From Duganella sp. BuS-21 (GTDB taxonomy: Bacteria; Pseudomonadota; Gammaproteobacteria; Burkholderiales; Burkholderiaceae_D): DNA of 64,000 bases. Shown piece by piece: positions 14,591-25,720 of the stretch (positions are counted from its first letter, which is position 1; each line of letters begins with the position of its first letter). The translations under genes and the position numbers were made by a program. The stretch lies in NCBI GenBank assembly GCA_041874725.1, contig CP097466.1, positions 3,162,001-3,226,000 on the forward strand, written 5' to 3'. The notes below the pieces were generated by a model. The model made no database searches, was not told the origin of the DNA, and saw only the letters and a list, made by a program, of their open reading frames with translations.

Positions 14591-15870
14591 GCACGGCGCT
14601 GTTCTGGTTTCGCAACGACCTGCGGCTGCACGACCAGCCGGCACTGCTGGCGGCATGTGCCAGTGGCGCGCGTCATCTGGTGCCGGTCTTTTGCCTGCCG
14701 GATGCGCAGGAGGCAACGCGCTGGGGCTTCGCGCGCATCGGCCCGCATCGCCTGGCGTGGCTGGACGATGCGCTGCATGACCTGGCGCTGCAGCTGGAAC
14801 GTTTGAATTGTCCGCTGTTGATAGTCAGCGCTCCGGCCGCCTCCGCCTTGCCGGAGCTGGCGCGCGTGTTGGGCGCGGACGCGGTGTTCTGCGAAGAGAT
14901 CGCCGCACCGGAAGAACAGGCGCAAGTCGCGGCCCTGCGCGCTGCCGGATTGCAGGTGACAACCGTCTGGCAAAGCAGCTTGCTCGATCCGCAAGCGCTG
15001 CCTTGGCCGCCGCAGGATTTGCCGCCATCCTTTACGCCGTTCAAGCAGGCAGTGGAGCGCGTTCGACTGGCGCCGCCCGAGCCGCTGGCGCCGCCGACGG
15101 CGCTGCCGCCTTGGCCGGCCGATGTCAAGGTGCCGGCCCATCTGCGCGGTTTGCGGCCGCAGCAGCTTGAGCGGGACGAGGTCCGTTCATCGCTGGCCGG
15201 TTTGACAGCCGGCGAGACCGCAGGGCTGGCGCACCTGGCCCGCTACCTAGGCCGCAAGCTGCCGGACACCTACAAACAAACCCGTAACGGATTGACCGGC
15301 GTGGATTACTCCAGCAAGTGGTCGCCATGGCTGGCCAGCGGCGCTGTGTCGGCGCGCGCCATCATGGCGCAGCTGCGCGAGTACGAGTCGGTGCACGGTG
15401 CAAACGACGGTAGCTACTGGCTGTGGTTCGAGTTGTTATGGCGCGATTATTTCCGCTTCCTGCATCTGCAGCACGGCAGCCGGCTTTACCATGGGCGCGG
15501 TCTGGGCCAGTTGCCGCCGCCAGCGCATGAGGTGCAGGCGTTTGAGTGCTGGCGCAAGGCAGGCACCGGCCAGCCGCTGGTGGATGCGGCCATGCGCGAA
15601 CTGGCGGCCACCGGCTACCTGAGCAACCGCTTGCGCCAGGTCGTGGCCAGTTACCTGATCTACGAGCTCGGTGGCGACTGGCGCGCCGGCGCGGCGTGGT
15701 TCGAGTCGCAGCTGATCGACTACGACGTCTACAGCAATCAGGGCAACTGGCTGTACATCGCCGGTCGTGGCAGCGATCCGCGCGGCGGCCGCCGCTTCAA
15801 TGTCGACAAGCAGACCGCCGAGCATGACGCCGACGGCGCTTACCGCCGGCTGTGGGCGGCGGCAGACTAG
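14587..15870 (+). CDS. Cryptochrome DASH / photolyase family flavoprotein
   Basis: 427 residues. N-terminal Rossmann-like photolyase domain opens with ALFWFRNDLRLHDQPAL. The C-terminal FAD-binding helical domain includes SSKWSPWLASGAVSARAI, WFELLWRDYFRF and GYLSNRLRQVVASYLIYELGGDWRAGAAWFE, the typical DASH sequence; the run of residues YDVYSNQGNWLYIAGRGSDPRGGRRFN closes it. DASH proteins repair cyclobutane pyrimidine dimers, mainly in single-stranded DNA, and bind a folate (MTHF) antenna. The gene is convergent with the BLUF gene, the two TAG stops sharing three bases. FolE, encoded nearby, supplies the pterin pathway leading to the antenna. Confidence 0.92.
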   Translation: MSTALFWFRNDLRLHDQPALLAACASGARHLVPVFCLPDAQEATRWGFARIGPHRLAWLDDALHDLALQLERLNCPLLIVSAPAASALPELARVLGADAVFCEEIAAPEEQAQVAALRAAGLQVTTVWQSSLLDPQALPWPPQDLPPSFTPFKQAVERVRLAPPEPLAPPTALPPWPADVKVPAHLRGLRPQQLERDEVRSSLAGLTAGETAGLAHLARYLGRKLPDTYKQTRNGLTGVDYSSKWSPWLASGAVSARAIMAQLREYESVHGANDGSYWLWFELLWRDYFRFLHLQHGSRLYHGRGLGQLPPPAHEVQAFECWRKAGTGQPLVDAAMRELAATGYLSNRLRQVVASYLIYELGGDWRAGAAWFESQLIDYDVYSNQGNWLYIAGRGSDPRGGRRFNVDKQTAEHDADGAYRRLWAAAD

Positions 15871-16289
15871 GCGCGGCCGAGGATGGCGGCGGCGCTCATC
15901 AGTTCATCGATCAGCGCCAGCGAACTGTCGCCGCTGAGCGTGAACGGATCGAAGTCCGGCAGCGCCGAGTAACGCAGCACCGTGCCAGGATTGAGCTTGT
16001 CCAGATTGGTCTGGCCCATGGTCCAGCCGGCGTAGCGGCGTTCGCTGATTTCTTCATAGTGCAGCAGCGTCACGTCGGTGTGGCGCGAATCGCGCATGAG
16101 GCGCGCATACAGGGCGTTGACCTGCGCGCGTCCGCCTTCCAGCACCTGCAGGTACAGCCGTTCGCTGTGGCACAGCACACCGGTGATGCCGGCCGGCGGA
16201 TTGTGCTGGCGCGACTGCTGCAGGATGGACGCCATCTCCGCTTCGGTGTGCGCCGTCGCGCGGCTGGCATACAATAATCTGACGAGCAT
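15867..16289 (-). CDS. BLUF-domain blue-light sensor
   Basis: 140-residue stand-alone BLUF protein that should bind FAD non-covalently. The residues of the photocycle are present: Y7 (RLLYASR), N30, Q48 (LYLQVLEGG) and the W89/M91 pair (GWTM) with the same two-residue spacing as W104/M106 in AppA. A C-terminal pair of helices follows the domain. With no effector domain it must signal through a partner protein. Last gene of the seven-gene minus-strand operon; start at 16289 lies 11 bp after the folE stop. Confidence 0.92.
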   Translation of the reverse strand: MLVRLLYASRATAHTEAEMASILQQSRQHNPPAGITGVLCHSERLYLQVLEGGRAQVNALYARLMRDSRHTDVTLLHYEEISERRYAGWTMGQTNLDKLNPGTVLRYSALPDFDPFTLSGDSSLALIDELMSAAAILGRA

Positions 16290-16300
16290 GATACCTCCGC

Positions 16301-17005
16301 TTAGCGTTTGATCAGAGCAAGGAATTCGCGCCGCAGCGCGGCATCCTTGAGAAATGAGCCGTGCATGACGCTGTTGATCATGCGGGCGTCGTTGTCTTTC
16401 ACGCCGCGCCATTGCATGCAGAAGTGGTCGGCTTCCATGATGACGGCCAAGCCGTCGGGCTTGACCTTTTCTTGCAGCAGCTCGGCCAGCTGCACCACGG
16501 CTTCTTCCTGGATCTGCGGCCGGCTCATGATCCAGCCGGCCAGGCGCGCGTACTTGGACAGCCCGATCAGGTTGGAGTGCTGGTTCGGCATGACGCCGAT
16601 CCACACCTTGCCCATCACCGGGCACAGGTGGTGCGAGCAGGCGCTGCGCACGGTGATCGGGCCGATGATCATCAACTCGTTCAGGTGCGAGACGTTGGGG
16701 AATTCGGTCACCGGCGGCGGCGGCGCGTAACGGCCGCCGAACACTTCCTGCAGATACATCTTGGCCACGCGGCGCGCGGTGTCCTGCGAGTTGTGGTCGT
16801 TGACGGTATCGATCACCAGGCTTTCCAGCACGCCCTGCATGCGCAGGCTCACTTCGTCGAGTAGCGCATCGAGCTCACCCGGCTCGATGTGGTCGGCGAT
16901 ATTGTCGTTGGCGTGGAAGCGTACGCCGTTGCGCGTCAGGCGCGCGCGGATGCGCTCGGATACCGGCGTGGTATCGGCACGGTAGGCAAGTGCCTGCTCG
17001 TTCAT
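16301..17005 (-). CDS. folE: GTP cyclohydrolase I (FolE)
   Basis: 234 residues; first enzyme of the pterin/tetrahydrofolate route, converting GTP to 7,8-dihydroneopterin triphosphate. Zinc ligands are visible in CSHHLCPVMG and in the later HFCMQWRGVKD. The PVTEFPN and MIIGPITVRSACSHH segments are conserved. It is placed in a light-related operon rather than with other folate genes. That suggests a dedicated supply of pterin, for example for the folate antenna of the adjacent cryptochrome; this is inference from context. ATG at 17005, 20 bp after tspO. Confidence 0.92.
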   Translation of the reverse strand: MNEQALAYRADTTPVSERIRARLTRNGVRFHANDNIADHIEPGELDALLDEVSLRMQGVLESLVIDTVNDHNSQDTARRVAKMYLQEVFGGRYAPPPPVTEFPNVSHLNELMIIGPITVRSACSHHLCPVMGKVWIGVMPNQHSNLIGLSKYARLAGWIMSRPQIQEEAVVQLAELLQEKVKPDGLAVIMEADHFCMQWRGVKDNDARMINSVMHGSFLKDAALRREFLALIKR

Positions 17006-17025
17006 GGTCTTTCCTTGTTCAAGTA

Positions 17026-17517
17026 TTACAGCAGGCCGGGATTGCGCTGCCAGATGGTAAAGCACAGCGCGCCGGCAAACGTGACCCAGGCGATGTAGGG
17101 CAGCATCAATGCGCCCGCCAGACGATCGCGGCGGTAGAACGCGGCCATCGTGGCGGCGATCAGCAACCATAGCGCGACGATGCAGGCGAAGGCCCAGGCG
17201 CCCTGGTGCCAGGCAAAGAACAGCCAGCTCCACAGCGCGTTGAGCACCAGTTGGATCAGGTACAGGCGCACCGCCGGCGCGGCCGCCAGGGTGGTGCTGC
17301 GGACGGCGCGCCAGGCGGCCACCGCCATCAGCAGATACAGCACAGTCCACGCAGGGCCGAACAGCCAGGTCGGCGGCGCCCAGGACGGCTGGTCCAGTTG
17401 GGCATAAAACGTCGGCGCCTGGGTTGAGCCCATGGCGCCGACGGCGGCAAATGCGGCGGTCAGGGCGATCCAGCCGAGCAGGGAAAACAGGGAGTGGAAG
17501 GAAGGTTTTGGGCTCAT
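17026..17517 (-). CDS. tspO: TspO/MBR family membrane protein
   Basis: 163 residues, five predicted transmembrane helices, as in the tryptophan-rich sensory protein / translocator family. Characteristic segments are YAQLDQPSWAPPTWLFGPAWTVLYLLMAVAAW and the tryptophan-rich LNALWSWLFFAWHQGAW. TspO proteins bind and degrade or export porphyrins and respond to light and oxygen in Rhodobacter. Start at 17517 overlaps the SDR stop by four bases (ATGA). Confidence 0.92.
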   Translation of the reverse strand: MSPKPSFHSLFSLLGWIALTAAFAAVGAMGSTQAPTFYAQLDQPSWAPPTWLFGPAWTVLYLLMAVAAWRAVRSTTLAAAPAVRLYLIQLVLNALWSWLFFAWHQGAWAFACIVALWLLIAATMAAFYRRDRLAGALMLPYIAWVTFAGALCFTIWQRNPGLL

Positions 17518-18293
17518 GTCGGTTTTAGCAAGTGGGTGAACAGGGCGAAGCGGGCACGGTAGGGCAGCCACCGCAGCAGCTTGACCACCAGCGTGAAGCG
17601 CTTCGGGAAATGGATTTCAAACTTGCCGGCGCTCAGGCCGCGATGAATGGCGCACGCCGCCTCCTGCGGCGTTTGCAGCGCCGGCATGGTGAAGGCGTTC
17701 TTGGCGGTCAGCTCGGTTTGCACGAAGCCGGGATTGATCAGGTACACATCCAGGCCGCGCGGGTGCAGGTCGGAGTACAGCAGTTCCGCCAGGTTGATCA
17801 GCGCCGCTTTGCTGGGACCGTAGACGCTGGCGTTGGGCAAGCCCATATAGCCGGCCACGCTGGCGACGATGGCGATGCCGCCGCTGCCGCGCGCCAGCAT
17901 GTCCGGCAGCACGGTCGCCAGCCCGGTGTAGACGCTGCCGAGATTGACGGCCAGCGTGTGCGCCGCGCCTTCCGACGTGACTTCCCAGCTGCGTTCCGGC
18001 AGGTAGTCGGCGGCGCAAAACACAATCAGGTCGATGCCGCCGATCTGTGCGCAGATGTCGCGGTAGCGCTCCTTCCAGCCTTCGCGGTAGAGGATGTCGA
18101 GCGGCGCCACGATGGCTTGCGGATGGCCCGCCGCCACCGCTTCCAGCTGCGCGACGCGGCGGGCCGACAGCACCACCTGGGCGCCAGCCTCCAGCATCTG
18201 CACGGCCAGCGCCGCGCCGATGCCGCTGGAGGCGCCGATCAGCCAGATGCGCCGGCCGCGCCAGTCTCTGACAGGATGGTTCAAAGTACGCAT
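17514..18293 (-). CDS. Short-chain dehydrogenase/reductase
   Basis: 259-residue SDR. Nucleotide-binding motif GASSGIG (about 20-26), an NLGS segment, the catalytic serine in ASVAGYMG, and YGPSK with catalytic Tyr and Lys are present; the C-terminus is basic and amphipathic (LVVKLLRWLPYRARF), possibly membrane-attached. The substrate is unknown. SDRs of this type recur with CFA synthase, DUF1365 and a flavin oxidoreductase in light- or singlet-oxygen-responsive operons, pointing to a lipid-related reaction. Starts 15 bp after the cfa stop. Confidence 0.85.
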   Translation of the reverse strand: MRTLNHPVRDWRGRRIWLIGASSGIGAALAVQMLEAGAQVVLSARRVAQLEAVAAGHPQAIVAPLDILYREGWKERYRDICAQIGGIDLIVFCAADYLPERSWEVTSEGAAHTLAVNLGSVYTGLATVLPDMLARGSGGIAIVASVAGYMGLPNASVYGPSKAALINLAELLYSDLHPRGLDVYLINPGFVQTELTAKNAFTMPALQTPQEAACAIHRGLSAGKFEIHFPKRFTLVVKLLRWLPYRARFALFTHLLKPT

Positions 18294-18308
18294 GGGTGGC
18301 TCCCGGCC

Positions 18309-19514
18309 TCAGACTTTTTGCAACAGGAATTGGACCACGTCGGTGCGGCCTTCGTCGAAGGCCGCCTCGCAGTAGGCGAAGTACAGGTGCCAGATGCGCA
18401 GGAAATGCTCATCGAAGCCTTGCTCGGTAATTTGGTGGCGGGTGACGCGGCATTGGGCGTCCCAGCGGCGCAGCGTCTCCGCATAGTCGGGGCCGAAGGC
18501 GTGGGCTTCCAGCGGCTGCAGCCCGGCGCGCGCCGCCTGTTGCTCGAAACGCTCGACACTGGGCAGCATGCCGCCGGGGAAGATGTACTGCTGGATGAAG
18601 TCGGTGCTGCTGCGATAGCGCTCGAAGTGCTGCTCGCCGATGGTGATGCTTTGCACCAGCGCCTGGCCGCCCGGCTTGAGCCGCGCCGCCACGGTCTGGA
18701 AATACTGCGGCCAGTATTGCTCGCCCACGGCTTCGAACATTTCGATTGAAACGATGGCGTCATACTCGCCGTCGAGGTCGCGATAATCGCGCAATTCCAG
18801 TTCGACGCGGTCGCCCAGGCCGCCCGCGCGGATGCGCTGTTGCGCCACTTCCAGCTGCGATGGCGAGATCGTCACGCCGTGCACGTGTATGCCCTGGCGC
18901 GCTGCCTGTTCCGCAAAGCCGCCCCAGCCGCAGCCGATTTCCAGCACGCGCTGCCCCGGCTTCAAATGCAGCGTGTCGATGATGCGCTGGTATTTGCGGC
19001 GCTGCGCTTCCTGCAGCGGCAGACCGTGGTCGCCTTCGAACAGCGCGCTGGAATAGGTCCAGCTCGGGTCCAGCCAGAGCTTGTAGAAGGCGTTGCCGAT
19101 GTCGTAGTGGGCGTGGATGTTGCGCTGGCTGCCTTTGCGCGTGTTCGGCCGCAGCCAGTGGCGCAGGCGATACCAGGCGCGCGCCAGTGCGCCGCCGAAC
19201 ACCAGCCGGTCCAGCGCCGCTTCGTTGCGCAGGGCCAGCCGCAGCAGGGCGGTCAGGTCCGGGGTGTCGATCCAGCCGGCGGCCCAGGCTTCGGCAAAGC
19301 CGATGTCGCCGGCGCGCAGGATGCGCTGGCAAGCGCGCCAGTCATGCACCTGTAGCGTGGCGCCAGCCGTATCGTGGGCATTGCCGAACACCATGCGCGC
19401 GCCGTCCGGCGCGATCAGCTCCAGGTGGCCGATGCGGATATTGTTGAGCAGTTTGAGAAACCAGCGTGCGCCGGTCGGCGCTGTCGAGAGCTGGGTGGTC
19501 AAGGTGCGGTTCAT
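18309..19514 (-). CDS. Cyclopropane-fatty-acyl-phospholipid synthase family methyltransferase
   Basis: 401 residues; SAM-dependent methyltransferase that modifies unsaturated acyl chains of membrane phospholipids. The SAM-binding glycine motif is VLEIGCGWGGFAEQAA, followed by the family segments GVTISPSQLEVAQQRI and SIEMFEAVGEQYW. A typical N-terminal SCP2-like domain occupies about the first 100 residues. AGGAG precedes the ATG at 19514. This operon-borne type is often distinct from the housekeeping Cfa and may add a methyl (furan fatty acid or related chemistry) rather than a cyclopropane. Confidence 0.88.
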   Translation of the reverse strand: MNRTLTTQLSTAPTGARWFLKLLNNIRIGHLELIAPDGARMVFGNAHDTAGATLQVHDWRACQRILRAGDIGFAEAWAAGWIDTPDLTALLRLALRNEAALDRLVFGGALARAWYRLRHWLRPNTRKGSQRNIHAHYDIGNAFYKLWLDPSWTYSSALFEGDHGLPLQEAQRRKYQRIIDTLHLKPGQRVLEIGCGWGGFAEQAARQGIHVHGVTISPSQLEVAQQRIRAGGLGDRVELELRDYRDLDGEYDAIVSIEMFEAVGEQYWPQYFQTVAARLKPGGQALVQSITIGEQHFERYRSSTDFIQQYIFPGGMLPSVERFEQQAARAGLQPLEAHAFGPDYAETLRRWDAQCRVTRHQITEQGFDEHFLRIWHLYFAYCEAAFDEGRTDVVQFLLQKV

Positions 19515-20281
19515 TGTGCTGTCTCCTGGTGCACGGTGGTATGGATAGACGGTGCGGCGGGCTTGCTGAAAAAGGGGACGCGCTTCAGCCACAGCCGCAA
19601 CGCCTGCCAGTGGATGCGGGCGACGATGCCGATGCCGAGCAGCGGGTAGCGGCACAACGCGCCGAAGATGGCGCGGTCGGTCATCGGCGCCGGATGGCCG
19701 CTGACGGCGGTGCGCAACAGCAGGCCATCGTCGTCGTGGTAGTCGATGCCGATGCTGTGGCTGGCGCCGCCCAGCCGGAAGCGGAAGCGATAGTGGCCTT
19801 GCACCGCGCAGAACGGCGATACGTGCATCTGCTTGACGGCGGCCACGCTCATGCCGTCATCGATACGCAGCAGATAGCGGTGGGTTTCGCCGAAGGTGTT
19901 GTTGACTTCGGCCAGCACGGCGGCCAGCCGGCCGTCGGCCGCATGGCATTGCCAAAAGTTGACCGGGTTGAAGACGTAGCCGGCCACGCGCGGAAAAGTT
20001 TGCAGCCAGATCTCGCCATCGGCGGTGATGCCGTGTTCGCGCAGCAGGGCGCGCATCCACAGTTCCAGGCTGGAGCCGTCGCGCGGGCCGTAGTCGCGGC
20101 GACGGATGGCCAGCGGCCGCCAGCGGTCCACGCCGAACCAGCGCGAGTTGCATGCATCCAGCCGCGCCAGGTTCAGGCGCACGTAGAACAAGGGATAGAC
20201 GAAGCGGTGCAGCGCCGGCCGCAGGCGCGCATGCACCACGTGGCCGTGTACCAGCTGGGCCGGGGACTGGACCGGTTTCAT
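19511..20281 (-). CDS. DUF1365 family protein
   Basis: 256 residues of the DUF1365 family, function unknown but nearly always next to a CFA-type synthase and a flavin amine-oxidase-like protein. Conserved blocks visible are HARLRPALHRFVYPLFYVRLNL, FPRVAGYVFNPVNFWQCH, AEVNNTFGETHRYLL and KQMHVSPFCAVQGHYRFRF. ATGA overlaps join it to the genes on both sides, so it is translated as part of a coupled trio. A role in modifying membrane lipids under light or singlet-oxygen stress is inferred from this neighbourhood. Confidence 0.9.
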   Translation of the reverse strand: MKPVQSPAQLVHGHVVHARLRPALHRFVYPLFYVRLNLARLDACNSRWFGVDRWRPLAIRRRDYGPRDGSSLELWMRALLREHGITADGEIWLQTFPRVAGYVFNPVNFWQCHAADGRLAAVLAEVNNTFGETHRYLLRIDDGMSVAAVKQMHVSPFCAVQGHYRFRFRLGGASHSIGIDYHDDDGLLLRTAVSGHPAPMTDRAIFGALCRYPLLGIGIVARIHWQALRLWLKRVPFFSKPAAPSIHTTVHQETAQ

Positions 20282-21561
20282 GGCAGCGTGGCCCAGGCCG
20301 GTGCGACGCCGAATGCGGCGGCGATGCGCAGCGCGGATTTCAGGCCGTCCTCGTGGAAGCCGTAGCCGGTCCAGGCGCCGGCGTACCAGGTGCCGTTGAC
20401 GCCCTGGATCTGCTGCAACTGCTGCTGCGCCTGAATGGCGCCCTGGTCCATGATCGGGTGGTCGTACTCGAATGTCGCCAGCAGCTTGTCGGCGTCCGGC
20501 GGCACGTGCGGATTGAGGGTCACGACCACCGGGGTTTCGAACGGCAGCGCCTGCAGCTGGTTGAGCCAATAGCTGACGCATACGGGGCGCCCGCCCGAGG
20601 TGCGGGCGCCGGAAAGGTAGTTCCAGGCCGACCATACTTTGCGGCGGCGCGGCAGCAGGCGCGTGTCGGTGTGCAGGTAGGCCGTATTCGGCTGGTAGCG
20701 CACGCCGCCGAGGATGGCACGCTCGGGCAGGCTGACGTCCTTCAGCAGCGACAGCGTGGTCGGCGCATGGGTAGCGAACACCACCGCGTCGAAGGTTTCG
20801 CTGTCGAGCCCGCTATCGACCTGCAGCGTGCCGTCGGCATTGCGCCACACCCCCCGCACCGGCGCGCGCAGGCGGCAATCCGGCAGCACGGCGGCGATCT
20901 TTTCGACGTAGTTGCGCGCGCCGCCGGCCACCGTGCGCCATTGCGGCCGCTTGTTCACCTGCAGCAGCGCGTGGTTCAGGCAGAAACGCAGGAAGGTCGC
21001 GGCCGGAAAGTTGAGGATGTCGTTCGGCGCGCTGGACCAGATGGCCGCCGCCATCGGTAGCAGGTAAGCGTCGCGGAAGCGCGCGCCATAGCGCTGTTGC
21101 TGCAGCAGCTGACCCAGCGTGGCGCCGCTCTGCATGGCCTGTTCAAGAAAGCGCTGTGCATGGCGATTGAAATGCAAGATATCCCACAGCATGCGCAGGA
21201 AGGACGGGCTGCCGAGGTTGCCGCGCTGGGCGAACACGCTGTCGAGATTGGTGCCGGCCCATTCGAGCGCGCCGTCATCCATCGACACCGCGAACGACAT
21301 GTCGCTGGCGATACTGGTCACGTTCAGTTCCTCGAACAGCGCGATCAGATTGGGGTAGGTCAGTTCGTTGTAAACCAGGAAGCCGGTATCAACGCCATGG
21401 GTGCGGCCTTCCAGCGTGACGTCGACGGTATTGGTATGGCCGCCCAGGTAGCTGCCGGCCTCGAACAGCACCACATCGTGGGCGCGGCTGAGGAAATAGG
21501 CGCTGGCCAGGCCGGAGATGCCGGCGCCGACGATGGCGATACGTTGACGTTTCTGATTCAT
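20278..21561 (-). CDS. FAD-dependent oxidoreductase (COG2907, amine-oxidase-like)
   Basis: 427-residue flavoprotein with a dinucleotide-binding fold at the N-terminus (RIAIVGAGISGLASAYFLSRAHDVVLFEAG). Further blocks are GVDTGFLVYNELTYPNL and VVFATHAPTTLSLL, with the closing NGTWYAGAWTGYGFHEDGLKSA, all typical of the COG2907 proteins that pair with DUF1365 and CFA synthase. First gene of the seven-gene light-related operon. ATG at 21561 is chosen because homology begins there; a TTG at 21612 would add 17 residues. No clear Shine-Dalgarno was seen. Substrate unknown. Confidence 0.88.
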   Translation of the reverse strand: MNQKRQRIAIVGAGISGLASAYFLSRAHDVVLFEAGSYLGGHTNTVDVTLEGRTHGVDTGFLVYNELTYPNLIALFEELNVTSIASDMSFAVSMDDGALEWAGTNLDSVFAQRGNLGSPSFLRMLWDILHFNRHAQRFLEQAMQSGATLGQLLQQQRYGARFRDAYLLPMAAAIWSSAPNDILNFPAATFLRFCLNHALLQVNKRPQWRTVAGGARNYVEKIAAVLPDCRLRAPVRGVWRNADGTLQVDSGLDSETFDAVVFATHAPTTLSLLKDVSLPERAILGGVRYQPNTAYLHTDTRLLPRRRKVWSAWNYLSGARTSGGRPVCVSYWLNQLQALPFETPVVVTLNPHVPPDADKLLATFEYDHPIMDQGAIQAQQQLQQIQGVNGTWYAGAWTGYGFHEDGLKSALRIAAAFGVAPAWATLP

Positions 21562-21620
21562 AGGGTGATGATGAGGATGTTTAACTGGTGTGCTAATATT
21601 ACTACCGTCCAATAAGAAAA

Positions 21621-21648: not shown

Positions 21649-22263
21649 ATGAGTATTTTTCCAAAATTAAGCTTTAAAAATCAAGCCTTTAAGCTGCGTG
21701 AGCATGCGATCCTCGACGCTGCGACTGCCGTGCTCAGCACCAAAGGCTATGATTTGATGACGATGGATGATGTGGCCGGCGCGGTCGGCATCTCCAAGCC
21801 CAGCCTTTACAAGCACTTTAAATCGAAGGAAGATTTAGTGGGCGAGGCGCTGATCCGCCTGCTCGACGGTGCGCTCGATTACGTCGCCGCGATCGACCCG
21901 ACGCTGGGCCCGGTCGAGAAGCTGTCGGCGCTGCTGGAGTGGGCGCTGCGGGTGCGGCTCGACGGCGGCCTGCCGTTCCTGCCGTCCACCAGCCCGCACG
22001 TGCGCGAGATGTTGATGCGCAATTTGAAGTACATGATGAAGGTGCTCAAATTGAACCGTCAGCTTGAGGCGCTGGTCAAGCAGGGCCAGGAGCAGGGCCG
22101 GCTGAACCGCGCGCTGCCGACCGATGTGATCCTGTTCAGCTACTACGCGCGCACCTGCGATCCGGCGGTCGAGTATTTGCAGACCTTCAGCAAGATGACG
22201 ACCGAAGATATCGTGCGGCATATGCTGAAAGTCTCGTTTGTAGGTTTTTCGGCAAAGGAATGA
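21649..22263 (+). CDS. TetR/AcrR-family transcriptional regulator
   Basis: 204 residues. The N-terminal helix-turn-helix domain is intact (REHAILDAATAVLSTKGYDLMTMDDVAGAVGISKPSLYKHFKSKEDLV); the C-terminal ligand domain is variable and not assignable. It heads an operon with the PYP homologue and two c-di-GMP enzymes (ATGA overlap with the next gene) and is divergent from the light-related seven-gene operon. The palindrome at 21621-21636 is a plausible binding site. Ligand unknown. Confidence 0.9.
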   Translation: MSIFPKLSFKNQAFKLREHAILDAATAVLSTKGYDLMTMDDVAGAVGISKPSLYKHFKSKEDLVGEALIRLLDGALDYVAAIDPTLGPVEKLSALLEWALRVRLDGGLPFLPSTSPHVREMLMRNLKYMMKVLKLNRQLEALVKQGQEQGRLNRALPTDVILFSYYARTCDPAVEYLQTFSKMTTEDIVRHMLKVSFVGFSAKE

Positions 22264-22649
22264 CTATGCAGACAGAGGTACAGTTTGAGCAAGCGGGCAT
22301 CGCCGCGCTGCTGGCGGCGATGGATGATGCGGTCCTCGATACGCTGGATTTTGGCGTGATCGGCTTTGACCACGAACACCGGGTGCTGCGCTACAACCGC
22401 TTCGAGTCGCAGGCCGCCGGCCTGCGTCCCGAGCGCGTGCTGGACCAGGACTTGTTTACCGTGGTGGCGCCGTGCATGAACAATTTCCTGGTGGCGCAGC
22501 GCTTTGTTGATGCGCGCGCAGCCGGCGAGCCGCTCGACGACACCATCAATTATGTGCTGACGCTGCGCATGCGCCCGACCAAGGTCAAGCTGCGCCTGGT
22601 ATCGGCGCCATCGGCGGCGCTGTCGTACGTGCTGGTGCATCGGCTATGA
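22260..22649 (+). CDS. Photoactive yellow protein (PYP) homologue, single PAS domain
   Basis: 129-residue PAS protein that aligns along its length with Halorhodospira PYP. With a constant offset of three, Y42, E46 and the chromophore cysteine C69 correspond to Y45, E49 and C72 (segment VAPC). After a one-residue insertion Y94 and M100 correspond to Y98 and M104, followed by the shared PTKVK. Two pocket residues differ: T50 is A53 and R52 is L55. PYP binds p-coumaric acid through that cysteine and senses blue light. No tyrosine ammonia-lyase or coumarate ligase is in the window. ATGA overlaps couple it to TetR before and the cyclase after. It could also be a PYP-derived PAS protein without chromophore. 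Confidence 0.85.
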   Translation: MTMQTEVQFEQAGIAALLAAMDDAVLDTLDFGVIGFDHEHRVLRYNRFESQAAGLRPERVLDQDLFTVVAPCMNNFLVAQRFVDARAAGEPLDDTINYVLTLRMRPTKVKLRLVSAPSAALSYVLVHRL

Positions 22650-23977
22650 GCACGGCGACCTGCGCGGCTGTGCAGCCGCCACATCCGGATGCGGAAGAGT
22701 ATGAAGCGCTGCTGCAGTTCCTGTACATGGCGCCGGTGGGCCTGGTGCAACTCAGCAGCGACGGTAGCATCCTCATGCTCAACCCGCTCTCGGCCCAGCT
22801 GCTGATGCCGCTCAGCCGCGACGGCGAGCTGACCAATCTGTTCGAGGCGCTGGCCCCGGTGGCGCCGGACCTGCGGCAGCTGTGCGCCGCCTATACCGCG
22901 CCCAGCGGCCAGGTGTGCGACGCCACGCGCCTGTTTCTGCACGCCGACAATGTCGGCAGCGGGCCGCAGGTGTTGTCGCTCAGCTTGTTGAAGCTGGATG
23001 GCGCGCGCCTGATGGCGGTGCTCAGCGACATCACTGTGCAGGATAGGCGCGAGCGCCAGCTGCGCAACACCGATGCCTGGTTGAACGCCATCATGACCAA
23101 TATCGCCGACTACGCGCTGGCCAGCCTGGACCGGCAAGGCCGCATCGAATCGTGGAACGACAGCATCGGCCGCGTGACGGGCTACGACGCGGCCGTGGTG
23201 GGGCAGCCGTATGCGCTGTTTTATCCGGACGACGCTACCACTCCGGCCCAGCAGGCCGACCGCCTGCGCGAAGCCGACGAGAACGGCTGGACGCTGGACG
23301 AAGGCCTGCGTCGGCGCGCCGACGGCAGCCAGTTCTGGGGCAGCGCCATGATTACACCACTGCCGGGCCGGGCCGAGGAAGACAATGCGGTGCCGGCTTA
23401 CTGCATGATTATTCGCGACATTTCCGACAAGCGTGAAATCAGCCAGAGTCTGCGCCAGGCCGCCTACTGCGACCACCTGACCGGCCTGTTCAACCGGCGC
23501 GCCTTCTTTGAGGCGGCCGACGTGGAACTGGCGCGCCGCAAGAAATCGCCGCGGCCGGTGGCGCTGATCATGCTCGACGCCGACCATTTCAAGCGCATCA
23601 ACGACCACTACGGCCATCCGGCCGGCGACGAAGTGCTGCGCCAGCTGGCCACGGCCATGCGCGGCGTGTGCCGGCAGGTCGACGTGCTGGCGCGCATCGG
23701 CGGCGAAGAGTTCGCCGTGCTGCTGCCGTCGGTGGATCTCGATGACGCCATGGCGGTAGCCGAACGGCTGCTGGCCCAGGTGCGTCAGGCGCCGGCGTCG
23801 TACGAGAGCCAGCAGATTGCCTACACCGTCAGCCTTGGGGTGGCCATGATGGACGACGACGTGAGCGGCTTCGACGGCCTGCTGACCCGCGCCGACCAGG
23901 CCTTGTACCTGGCCAAGCGCAGCGGGCGCAACCGGGTTGCTTGCTGGCGTCCCGGCCTGGAAGAGGGAGGGCGCTGA
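22646..23977 (+). CDS. PAS-PAS-GGDEF diguanylate cyclase
   Basis: 443 residues. Residues about 18-130 form a PAS-like domain shared with the next gene's product. A second PAS with PAC motif (WLNAIMTNIADYALASLDRQGRIESW ... GSQFWGSAMITPL) follows, then a GGDEF domain from about 280. The catalytic loop is RIGGEEF and an inhibitory I-site RQVD lies five residues before it, so an active, product-inhibited cyclase is expected, making c-di-GMP. No membrane helices: a soluble sensor. Its ATG overlaps the PYP stop, suggesting it is the output partner of PYP. Confidence 0.92.
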   Translation: MSTATCAAVQPPHPDAEEYEALLQFLYMAPVGLVQLSSDGSILMLNPLSAQLLMPLSRDGELTNLFEALAPVAPDLRQLCAAYTAPSGQVCDATRLFLHADNVGSGPQVLSLSLLKLDGARLMAVLSDITVQDRRERQLRNTDAWLNAIMTNIADYALASLDRQGRIESWNDSIGRVTGYDAAVVGQPYALFYPDDATTPAQQADRLREADENGWTLDEGLRRRADGSQFWGSAMITPLPGRAEEDNAVPAYCMIIRDISDKREISQSLRQAAYCDHLTGLFNRRAFFEAADVELARRKKSPRPVALIMLDADHFKRINDHYGHPAGDEVLRQLATAMRGVCRQVDVLARIGGEEFAVLLPSVDLDDAMAVAERLLAQVRQAPASYESQQIAYTVSLGVAMMDDDVSGFDGLLTRADQALYLAKRSGRNRVACWRPGLEEGGR

Positions 23978-25720
23978 ATGCAGTCCGAGACCGATACCGC
24001 GTATGAAACCCTGATTCAGTTCCTGTACCGGGCGCCGGTGGCGCTGATCCAGATTCAGCACAACGGCGAAATCGAGATGCTCAATCCGATGGCCTCGCAG
24101 CTGCTGATGCCGCTGGCGCCCGAAGGCGACCTGCTCAACTTGTTCGAGGTGCTGCAGCCGTATGCACCGGACCTGGCGCAGCTGTGCGCCGGTTTCCAGG
24201 GAGCGCATGGCGTGGTCTGCGAAGGCCGGCGCATCGTGCTGGCCGCCGGCAGCAAGGGGCCGTCGGTGCTGTCGCTGAACCTGCTCAAGGTCGACGGGCA
24301 GCGGCTGATGGCGGTGCTGCTGGACGCTACCCACGAGGTGATGCGCGAACAGCGCACCCTGGCCAACCGCCTGGCCAGCGCGGCGCGCGTCGATTTGCTG
24401 ACCCAGTTGCCCAACCGTGGCCGGGCGCTGGAGTTGTTGCAGGATATGCTGCAGCGCCCCGTGCCGCACGACCATTGCGCGGTGATGTTCCTGAATCTCG
24501 ACCGTTTCAAGCAAATCAATGACACTTTCGGCAACGACGTTGGCGACCAGGTGATGGTGCTGGTGGCGGAGCGACTGCGCAGCGCAGTACGCGCCAACAG
24601 CCGCCCGCCTGGTCAGCCGCACAGCACCGAGATTGCGGCGCGCGTCGGCGGCGACGAATTCGCCGTGCTGCTCGACGGCTTGCCGCAGCGTGATACGGCC
24701 GAGCGCATCGCGCTGCGATTGCTCGATCACCTGAGCCGTCCTTACCAGGTCGGCGCCCATGAGCTGTCGTGTACCTTCAGCATCGGCATCGTGGCGCTGG
24801 ACGCGGAGACGCAGCAGGCCGACGATGTGCTGGGCGACGCCGCCATCGCCATGCGGGCGGCCAAGGCCGGCGGCGGCAACCAGTTTGCCGTGTTCGCGCG
24901 CGAGATGCGCGAGCAGGCGATCTGGCGCGGCGGCATGGAGGCCGATCTGCGCAGCGGCATCGAGCGCGGCGAATTGTTTACCGTCTATCAGCCGGTGGTG
25001 GGCCTGCTGCCGGGCGGCGGCATCGACCGCAGCGCCGGCGTCGAGGCGCTGGTGCGCTGGAATCACCCACTGCGCGGCGTGGTCGGGCCGGTGGAATTCA
25101 TCGGCGTGGCCGAGGATTGCGGCTTGATCGGCGCCATCGGCGAGCAGGTGCTGGCCATGGCCTGCGCCGATTTCGCCGGCTGGCAGAAGCAGCTGGGCGA
25201 GCGCGCACCGCGCCTGCTGGCGGTCAACCTGTCGCGCGCGCAGCTGAACCAGGATGGCCTGTGCCAGCGGGTCGGGGCGATTTTGGCCGCCAACGGCATG
25301 GCGCCCGAACAGCTGCAGCTGGAAATCACCGAGAGCCTGGCGGCGCAAGGTACGGACATCCAGTCGCAGTTGCTGGGATTGAAGGGCCTCGGCGTAAAAC
25401 TGGCGCTGGACGATTTCGGCACCGGCTACTCGTCGCTGTCCAGCCTCCATCTGCTGCCGGTCGACACGGTGAAGATCGACCGTTCCTTCATCACGCTGGC
25501 CGCCACCAGCAAGCATCACGAAGTGCTGATCGAGGCCACCGTGAAAGTCGCGCGTAGCCTGGGCATGAACACGGTGGCCGAGGGCATCGAAACGCAGCAG
25601 CAGGCCGCCGTGGTGGCGGAGCAGGGCTGCGACAAGGGACAGGGCTATTTGTACAGCCGGCCGATTTCCAGCGCCGCCATCGAGGAATGGCTGAGCGCTT
25701 CGGACCAGGCTATTGTGTAA
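23978..25720 (+). CDS. PAS-GGDEF-EAL c-di-GMP enzyme
   Basis: 580 residues. N-terminal PAS-like domain (about 8-125) paralogous to that of the preceding gene; GGDEF domain with an intact VGGDEF loop but no I-site (HSTE instead of RxxD). The EAL domain from about 320 has all key residues in EALVRW, NLSRAQL, EITES, DDFGTGYSSL, KIDRSF and EGIET. It is therefore likely an active phosphodiesterase, possibly bifunctional. It begins immediately after the upstream stop with no gap. Together with the cyclase and PYP it could set c-di-GMP in response to light. Confidence 0.92.
   Translation: MQSETDTAYETLIQFLYRAPVALIQIQHNGEIEMLNPMASQLLMPLAPEGDLLNLFEVLQPYAPDLAQLCAGFQGAHGVVCEGRRIVLAAGSKGPSVLSLNLLKVDGQRLMAVLLDATHEVMREQRTLANRLASAARVDLLTQLPNRGRALELLQDMLQRPVPHDHCAVMFLNLDRFKQINDTFGNDVGDQVMVLVAERLRSAVRANSRPPGQPHSTEIAARVGGDEFAVLLDGLPQRDTAERIALRLLDHLSRPYQVGAHELSCTFSIGIVALDAETQQADDVLGDAAIAMRAAKAGGGNQFAVFAREMREQAIWRGGMEADLRSGIERGELFTVYQPVVGLLPGGGIDRSAGVEALVRWNHPLRGVVGPVEFIGVAEDCGLIGAIGEQVLAMACADFAGWQKQLGERAPRLLAVNLSRAQLNQDGLCQRVGAILAANGMAPEQLQLEITESLAAQGTDIQSQLLGLKGLGVKLALDDFGTGYSSLSSLHLLPVDTVKIDRSFITLAATSKHHEVLIEATVKVARSLGMNTVAEGIETQQQAAVVAEQGCDKGQGYLYSRPISSAAIEEWLSASDQAIV

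Follow-up and report, generated by a model that had tools for sequence, protein, structure and literature searches.

The closest described relatives of the system reported here are the photoactive yellow proteins (PYPs) of clade C, which occur in Burkholderiales, adjoin GGDEF genes and, according to the accessible text of the source, include no characterised member (Xing et al., 2022, PMC9664959). Among 113 predicted pyp operons, GGDEF domains were reported in 29, EAL domains in 22 and a ligase in 42, as given in the accessible part of that study (Dohmen et al., 2025, PMC12826048). In Idiomarina loihiensis a single-domain PYP of clade A lies beside a GGDEF protein and was proposed to control biofilms (cited in the accessible text of PMC9664959), and Thermochromatium tepidum possesses a fusion of PYP, phytochrome and GGDEF/EAL domains (PMC12826048, accessible text). 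PYP is an intensively studied model photoreceptor, yet the accessible text of PMC9664959 describes the route from single-domain PYPs to their signalling partners as still unknown, and that of PMC12826048 regards the PYP signal chain as an important gap.

The window (the whole stretch of 64,000 nucleotides from Duganella sp. BuS-21 that was analysed) belongs to a genome of 6.49 Mb assembled as a single contig, which contains one copy of pyp. This gene is followed by two genes for predicted c-di-GMP enzymes whose N termini share a PAS-type domain, referred to below as the partner domain. The features are as follows.

21649 to 22263, plus strand: TetR-family regulator (PF00440, E 1.6e-17), here the first gene of the operon
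22260 to 22649, plus strand: PYP of 129 residues, assigned to clade C by its sequence; codon of the chromophore cysteine, C72, at 22473-22475
22646 to 23977, plus strand: predicted diguanylate cyclase with an N-terminal partner PAS domain, a second PAS domain and GGEEF; RxxD inhibition site present
22697 to 23035, plus strand: N-terminal partner PAS domain of the cyclase, approximately residues 18-130, 58% identical to the copy in the GGDEF-EAL protein
23978 to 25720, plus strand: GGDEF-EAL protein, a predicted phosphodiesterase, with a partner PAS domain, a GGDEF domain without RxxD and an EAL domain with EALVRW and DDFGTG motifs
24002 to 24331, plus strand: N-terminal partner PAS domain of the GGDEF-EAL protein, approximately residues 9-118
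15867 to 21612, minus strand: divergent neighbour cluster, listed as context with no membership in the system implied (amine oxidoreductase, DUF1365, cyclopropane-synthase-like, SDR, TspO, GTP cyclohydrolase I and BLUF protein)

Identification of the PYP homologue

The preliminary description, made from the sequence alone, had taken the open reading frame at 22260-22649 for a 129-residue PYP homologue joined by start/stop overlaps to a TetR gene and a GGDEF cyclase gene, and both points were confirmed. The pyp ATG (22260) overlaps the tetR stop codon (22261-22263), and the GGDEF gene likewise begins with an ATG (22646) that runs into the pyp stop codon (22647-22649), giving ATGA junctions at 22260-22263 and 22646-22649, and the GGDEF-EAL gene (from 23978) abuts the stop codon of the GGDEF gene (23975-23977). 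Alignment to residues 4-124 of H. halophila PYP placed Y45, E49 and C72 at Y42, E46 and C69, A53 and L55 at T50 and R52 and, after a one-residue insertion, Y98 and M104 at Y94 and M100.

In a search of solved structures, the matches with E values from 6.8e-16 to 2.3e-6 were all PYP, Ppr or PYP-derived tags, and the next match was the PAS domain of RpfR at E 0.29. The TIGR02373 profile (photo_yellow) was matched over positions 2-124 of 124 (E 2e-24) with 86.1 bits, under the curated cut-off of 143.05 bits, and the window PYP is not assigned to that equivalog; of the PYP homologues that BLAST detects, this profile recovers approximately 20% (PMC9664959, accessible text). Matches to Pfam PAS and PAS_4 stayed below their cut-offs. 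An AlphaFold2 model of the protein (mean pLDDT 85.8) was compared with known structures using Foldseek, in which places 1-40 were taken by PYP, Ppr or PYP-derived tags, with TM approximately 0.85 against the full-length PYPs ranking first and a Leptospira PAS domain at place 41. The sequence, profile, solved-structure and model comparisons thus agree that the reading frame encodes a PYP rather than a generic PAS protein.

Relatives were collected by a contig search with six patterns, one of which spans the chromophore cysteine, and the best 80 of the 119 found were used (the best 80 loci below). The equivalents of Tyr42, Glu46, Cys69, Tyr94 and Met100 are present in 80/80 of these, a conservation that is partly built in since the recruiting patterns cover several pocket residues; the chromophore cysteine emphasised in the preliminary description is accordingly kept throughout, with the same reservation about the pattern that spans it. 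Ala50 was found in 78 and Leu52 in all of the best 80 of 119 relatives, and these two residues are also the consensus of 984 PYP homologues (PMC12826048, accessible text). The earlier assignment of A53 and L55 to positions 50 and 52 stands, and its reading as an unusual pocket was rejected. In four of the best 80 of 119 loci there is a further PYP, which is canonical and has Thr50 and Arg52; L055 contains a fragment of a canonical PYP.

The family alignment and tree proposed as a check of the identification were carried out by maximum likelihood on 94 rows, and the window PYP and its 80 relatives split from 13 canonical PYPs with support 100/98, in a tree of few columns whose inner order is poorly resolved. 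At the clade C marker positions the window PYP has M104 at 100, I96 at 92, L100 at 96 and Y123 at 119. As judged from the tree split, the retention of Met100 and the loss of Phe92, Phe96 and Trp119, it is a clade C PYP in the sense of PMC9664959.

Predicted c-di-GMP enzymes

The window cyclase matches PF00990 (E 9.3e-47) and its translation shows GGEEF and RQVD; the GGDEF-EAL protein matches PF00563 (E 3.5e-64), with the EAL motifs likewise evident from the translation. Among the best 80 of 119 loci, GG(D/E)EF was found in 60/62 cyclases, 59 of these 60 also having RxxD. The GGDEF-EAL proteins of the same loci have lost GG(D/E)EF in 17/70 cases, none of the other 53 has RxxD, and the EAL motifs are present in 67/70, the other three running off contigs or being otherwise unmatched. 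With this pattern of motifs the two enzymes are predicted to act on c-di-GMP in opposite directions, the cyclase synthesising it and the GGDEF-EAL protein degrading it.

Architectures were counted over 81 rows, comprising the best 80 of 119 loci and L081, a short copy of the window's own locus, some of them cut by contig ends. Cyclase and GGDEF-EAL protein occur together in 50 rows, the cyclase alone in 10 (including L081, whose stretch ends there) and the GGDEF-EAL protein alone in 7, and the remaining 14 show rarer forms, in three of which a single frame contains two partner domains. The link between PYP and c-di-GMP enzymes drawn in the preliminary description is thereby borne out across the relatives' loci.

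The shared N-terminal partner domain

The two window enzymes are 58% identical over their first ~115 residues (65/112 aligned positions), a common domain that the preliminary description had missed. This domain has no Pfam match in either window protein; when 57 partner domains were scanned at E 0.01, one matched Pfam PAS (0.0028) and one PAS_8 (0.0055), and the set of 57 gave no NCBIfam match. A PDB sequence search gave no match at E 1. The model of the domain (mean pLDDT 86.2) displays a PAS fold that includes a long helix at the N terminus, and its best PDB structures are PAS-type domains with E 1e-4 to 1e-3 and TM approximately 0.5. When the profiles of the partner domain and of PYP were compared, no relation emerged (probability 0.3%, E 0.19).

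The partner domain lies directly 3' of pyp in 80/80 of the best 80 of 119 loci, starting between -15 and +69 nt from the pyp stop codon; a 4-nt overlap was found in 26 of these loci and the start codon could not be placed in 28. In L017 (10323-11543) and L030 (10310-11512) a gene located 3' of both pyp and a GGDEF-EAL gene joins the domain to HisKA-HATPase_c. Since it is found on three kinds of output (GGDEF, GGDEF-EAL and HisKA-HATPase), it is the domain and not the type of enzyme that goes with PYP. Two partner domains are present in one open frame ending in GGDEF-EAL in L005, L024 and L033, which ties the cyclase and the GGDEF-EAL protein together. In the GGDEF-EAL proteins of the relatives, 4-8 residues separate the boundaries of the partner PAS and GGDEF domains, leaving no room for a second PAS domain, and Pfam gave no match to one in either kinase protein (L017 and L030).

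The gene after pyp is without GGDEF in L076 (8385-9218), L079 (8126-9196), L098 (4063-4857) and L099 (3979-5142). The genes in L076, L079 and L099 end approximately 145-150 residues past the partner domain, with a second PAS domain matched in L076, and that in L098 ends soon after the partner domain.

No fusion of PYP and partner domain was found among the best 80 of 119 loci, which counts against the partner domain being a receiver of the PYP signal. In L005, L011, L040 and L051 the long reading frames 5' of pyp were examined as candidate natural PYP fusions and rejected; across the PYP part the only matches were weak ones to PAS (E 0.01).

Occurrence across genomes and co-evolution

A family sample of 392 genomes was searched for the partner domain at E 1e-10 and for PYP at E 1e-5, with a PYP model that also catches canonical PYPs at approximately 1e-22. 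The partner domain was found in 96/392 and PYP in 95/392 genomes, the domain being present in 95/95 genomes with PYP vs 1/297 without it, counts that, like the Fisher values computed from them, are not corrected for shared ancestry. The frequency of PYP in this sample is at odds with the preliminary view of PYP as rare in bacteria. A class-wide sample of 369 genomes (E 1e-5) contained the partner domain only in the window's genome, six others having canonical PYPs, and the stretches around eight canonical pyp genes gave 0 matches to the domain at E 1. In the partner-domain search the best matches of the weakest genomes lie at approximately 1e-30 and none falls between that value and the limit of 1e-10; the family is discrete at that level, as seen with a profile built from pyp-linked members only, by which remoter kin would be missed.

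The sole family genome with the partner domain and without pyp is G072, in which a partner-domain cyclase is kept together with the same TetR and part of the neighbour cluster. Its locus (L092, G072:C4:310500-322500) is a natural pyp loss with 92 bases between TetR and cyclase, and retains the amine oxidoreductase, DUF1365 and cyclopropane-synthase-like genes beside the TetR and partner-domain cyclase genes. At least two partner-domain genes (L093 and L094) are located away from pyp, which their genomes carry at another site, and a third (L095) is at the end of a 4.2-kb contig.

Because operon genes are gained and lost together, this co-occurrence does not show contact between PYP and the partner domain. 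A mirror-tree test, which is a weak test, was carried out on the 50 loci (of the best 80 of 119) with all parts. Partial correlations with PYP were -0.01 for the partner domain of the cyclase and 0.10 for that of the GGDEF-EAL protein, and 0.29 for the second PAS domain and 0.27 for the GGDEF domain of the GGDEF-EAL protein. A contact site would be expected to track the evolutionary distances of PYP, and the test, which gives the partner domain no special link to PYP, therefore does not favour a receiver role.

These correlations fit better with an alternative in which the shared domain works as a sensor in its own right, for a separate ligand, and PYP is only co-transcribed, acting, for example, on the second PAS or GGDEF domain; the ordinary PAS fold of the partner domain and the cyclase kept without PYP in G072 point the same way. 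We consider this alternative unlikely, given the near-exclusive occurrence of the domain with clade C PYP across the 392 family and 369 class-wide genomes, and given that the second PAS domain has no room in the GGDEF-EAL proteins and is unmatched in both kinases, whereas the N-terminal PAS domain is present in all three outputs. Whether the partner domain is instead a dedicated PYP-receiver module, serving as a plug-in for cyclase, phosphodiesterase and histidine kinase outputs, we regard as an evenly balanced question.

Chromophore supply

The PYP-type p-coumarate:CoA ligase family was defined as TIGR02372 at E 1e-40; the curated cut-off was reached in 5/392 genomes only. By this definition the ligase is present in 61/392 family genomes, comprising 60/95 with PYP and 1/297 without; in the lone genome without PYP (G125) the ligase gene lies 62 bases from the contig end. 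The ligase gene is within 3 kb (centre to centre) of a clade C gene in 47 genomes, adjoins a canonical pyp in 18, and does both in 5. This co-occurrence and closeness are good evidence that clade C as a whole uses a p-coumaroyl chromophore.

The preliminary description had proposed searching the genome for a tyrosine lyase and a p-coumarate ligase. No ligase of the window genome exceeds the TIGR02372 cut-off (best 95.2 bits vs 334.7) and there are 0 matches at E 1e-40, and in the window's genus only 2/18 genomes with PYP have a ligase at this level. In the close relatives L004 and L009 a p-coumarate:CoA ligase gene lies between the TetR gene and pyp and is missing at the window locus, so the overlap of TetR and pyp genes in the window probably marks the site at which the ligase was lost. 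As the dedicated ligase is absent from both operon and genome, loading must rely on another ligase; our guess is that plant p-coumarate is taken up and loaded in this way.

A CoA-ligase search of the window genome matched nine genes, of which seven were scanned against NCBIfam (L088 and the gene at 6405886 were left out). Acetate, propionate, malonate and fatty-acid types were over cut-off, one was near the benzoate type and one was unplaced; the L082 protein had no NCBIfam match at E 1e-30. The benzoate-type gene sits, by reading, with hydroxylase and beta-oxidation-like genes, and there was no obvious p-coumarate ligase among the seven scanned.

A lyase of tyrosine-lyase look (L091) is present, its HHL stretch resembling the tyrosine-lyase selectivity motif. 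Proteins of this type (E <1e-190) were found in 11/18 genomes with PYP vs 9 of the 20 searched genomes without it in the window's genus, and a PYP-linked tyrosine lyase is thus unsupported. The gene lies in a cluster (L100, G000:C1:5098000-5115000) in which acyl-carrier-like proteins, acyltransferases, a non-HutH ammonia lyase, an exporter-like gene, a halogenase-like flavoprotein and ligase-like genes were read from translations; by these genes the cluster looks to be of the aryl polyene type.

It might be supposed from this supply that PYP, here and in most of the genus, works without p-coumarate, as an apo-protein, scaffold or other sensor that still acts with the c-di-GMP enzymes. The lack of a dedicated ligase over cut-off in the window genome, the 2/18 PYP-bearing genomes of the genus with one, the ligase of L004 and L009 missing here and the even spread of the L091 type would all be explained. 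However, the five pocket residues are kept in every one of the best 80 of 119 loci, 62 of which have no ligase within the flank examined (flanks, as distinct from the rest of the genomes), and the ligase is also often missing from published pyp operons (PMC12826048, accessible text). In addition, the median pairwise dN/dS of pyp is 0.22 for 10 hand-picked pairs without a ligase nearby, one of which gives 0.56, vs 0.20 for 12 pairs with a ligase near at least one member; as judged from these ratios, PYP stays constrained without the ligase. An apo-PYP is therefore, in our estimate, improbable.

Upstream regulator and divergent neighbours

The TetR gene would probably control transcription of the pyp operon in the window. 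A homologue lies just upstream of pyp in only two of the best 80 of 119 loci (L004 and L009, within flanks), in both with the ligase gene in between, and a third homologue (L008) is 4 kb downstream. TetR as a core partner was rejected on this distribution. The same counts, and the persistence of TetR without pyp in L092, weigh against PYP signalling mainly to gene expression through the TetR gene, a route that the ATGA overlap of tetR and pyp would suggest and that we hold to be very improbable.

The neighbour cluster on the minus strand resembles light- or singlet-oxygen-induced gene sets. With its BLUF sensor, two kinds of blue-light receptor are encoded within 7 kb, in divergent gene sets. 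A BLUF homologue was found in the examined flank of four of the best 80 of 119 relatives (L002, L007, L009 and L046).

Proposed mechanism

Homology, fold match, pocket conservation, motifs, the order of the genes and a shared domain that in the searched genomes is nearly exclusive to clade C PYP were established here; the binding of the chromophore in this organism, the direction of the light effect on c-di-GMP, the enzyme activities and the physical contact are what we infer. By homology, blue light would isomerise the p-coumaroyl group on C72, and the changed PYP may then be read by the dedicated N-terminal PAS domain of both neighbouring enzymes. One photoreceptor would in this way set c-di-GMP via an opposed cyclase/phosphodiesterase pair having the same receiver module. 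We lean slightly towards this account, in which the locus is a clade C PYP operon and light-changed PYP is read by the N-terminal PAS domain common to two opposed c-di-GMP enzymes. Most likely, blue light would set c-di-GMP, and hence biofilm or motility, through both.

A domain of ~115 residues that, across the searched genomes, is nearly always accompanied by clade C PYP and is attached to three outputs is a specific candidate for the PYP partner. If this is true, PYP and the partner domain would be a ready-made light-controlled interaction pair, and one receptor would govern the formation of c-di-GMP as well as its degradation. Most PYP-bearing genomes of the genus lack the ligase, which raises the question of the chromophore source.

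Comparison with known systems

The arrangement of PYP with GGDEF and EAL genes, put forward as unfamiliar in the preliminary description, had already been described, in PMC9664959 for clade C and in PMC12826048 for pyp operons generally (accessible text of both). Like the clade C PYPs of PMC9664959 (accessible text), the window PYP keeps Y42/E46/C69 and M100, has F92, F96 and W119 replaced and has a GGDEF gene adjacent; unlike in the accessible account given there, which mentions neither, a shared N-terminal domain and the absence of the ligase were found here. TetR has 0 occurrences in PMC9664959, and TetR, Massilia and Duganella are absent from the main text of PMC12826048. The GGDEF/EAL genes beside pyp resemble the operons of the latter study, in whose accessible text no domain-level partner is proposed. 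The shared N-terminal domain is unnamed in the accessible text of the open-licence PYP literature searched and may be implicit in supplementary gene-neighbourhood tables.

The PYP of Idiomarina loihiensis belongs to clade A, whereas that of the window belongs by its sequence to clade C and is accompanied by the partner domain, which is absent around the eight canonical pyp genes searched (a set without Idiomarina). In Thermochromatium tepidum PYP is fused with a phytochrome, whereas the window PYP is a separate protein in an operon without phytochrome; PYP is the input to c-di-GMP domains there and would be so here.
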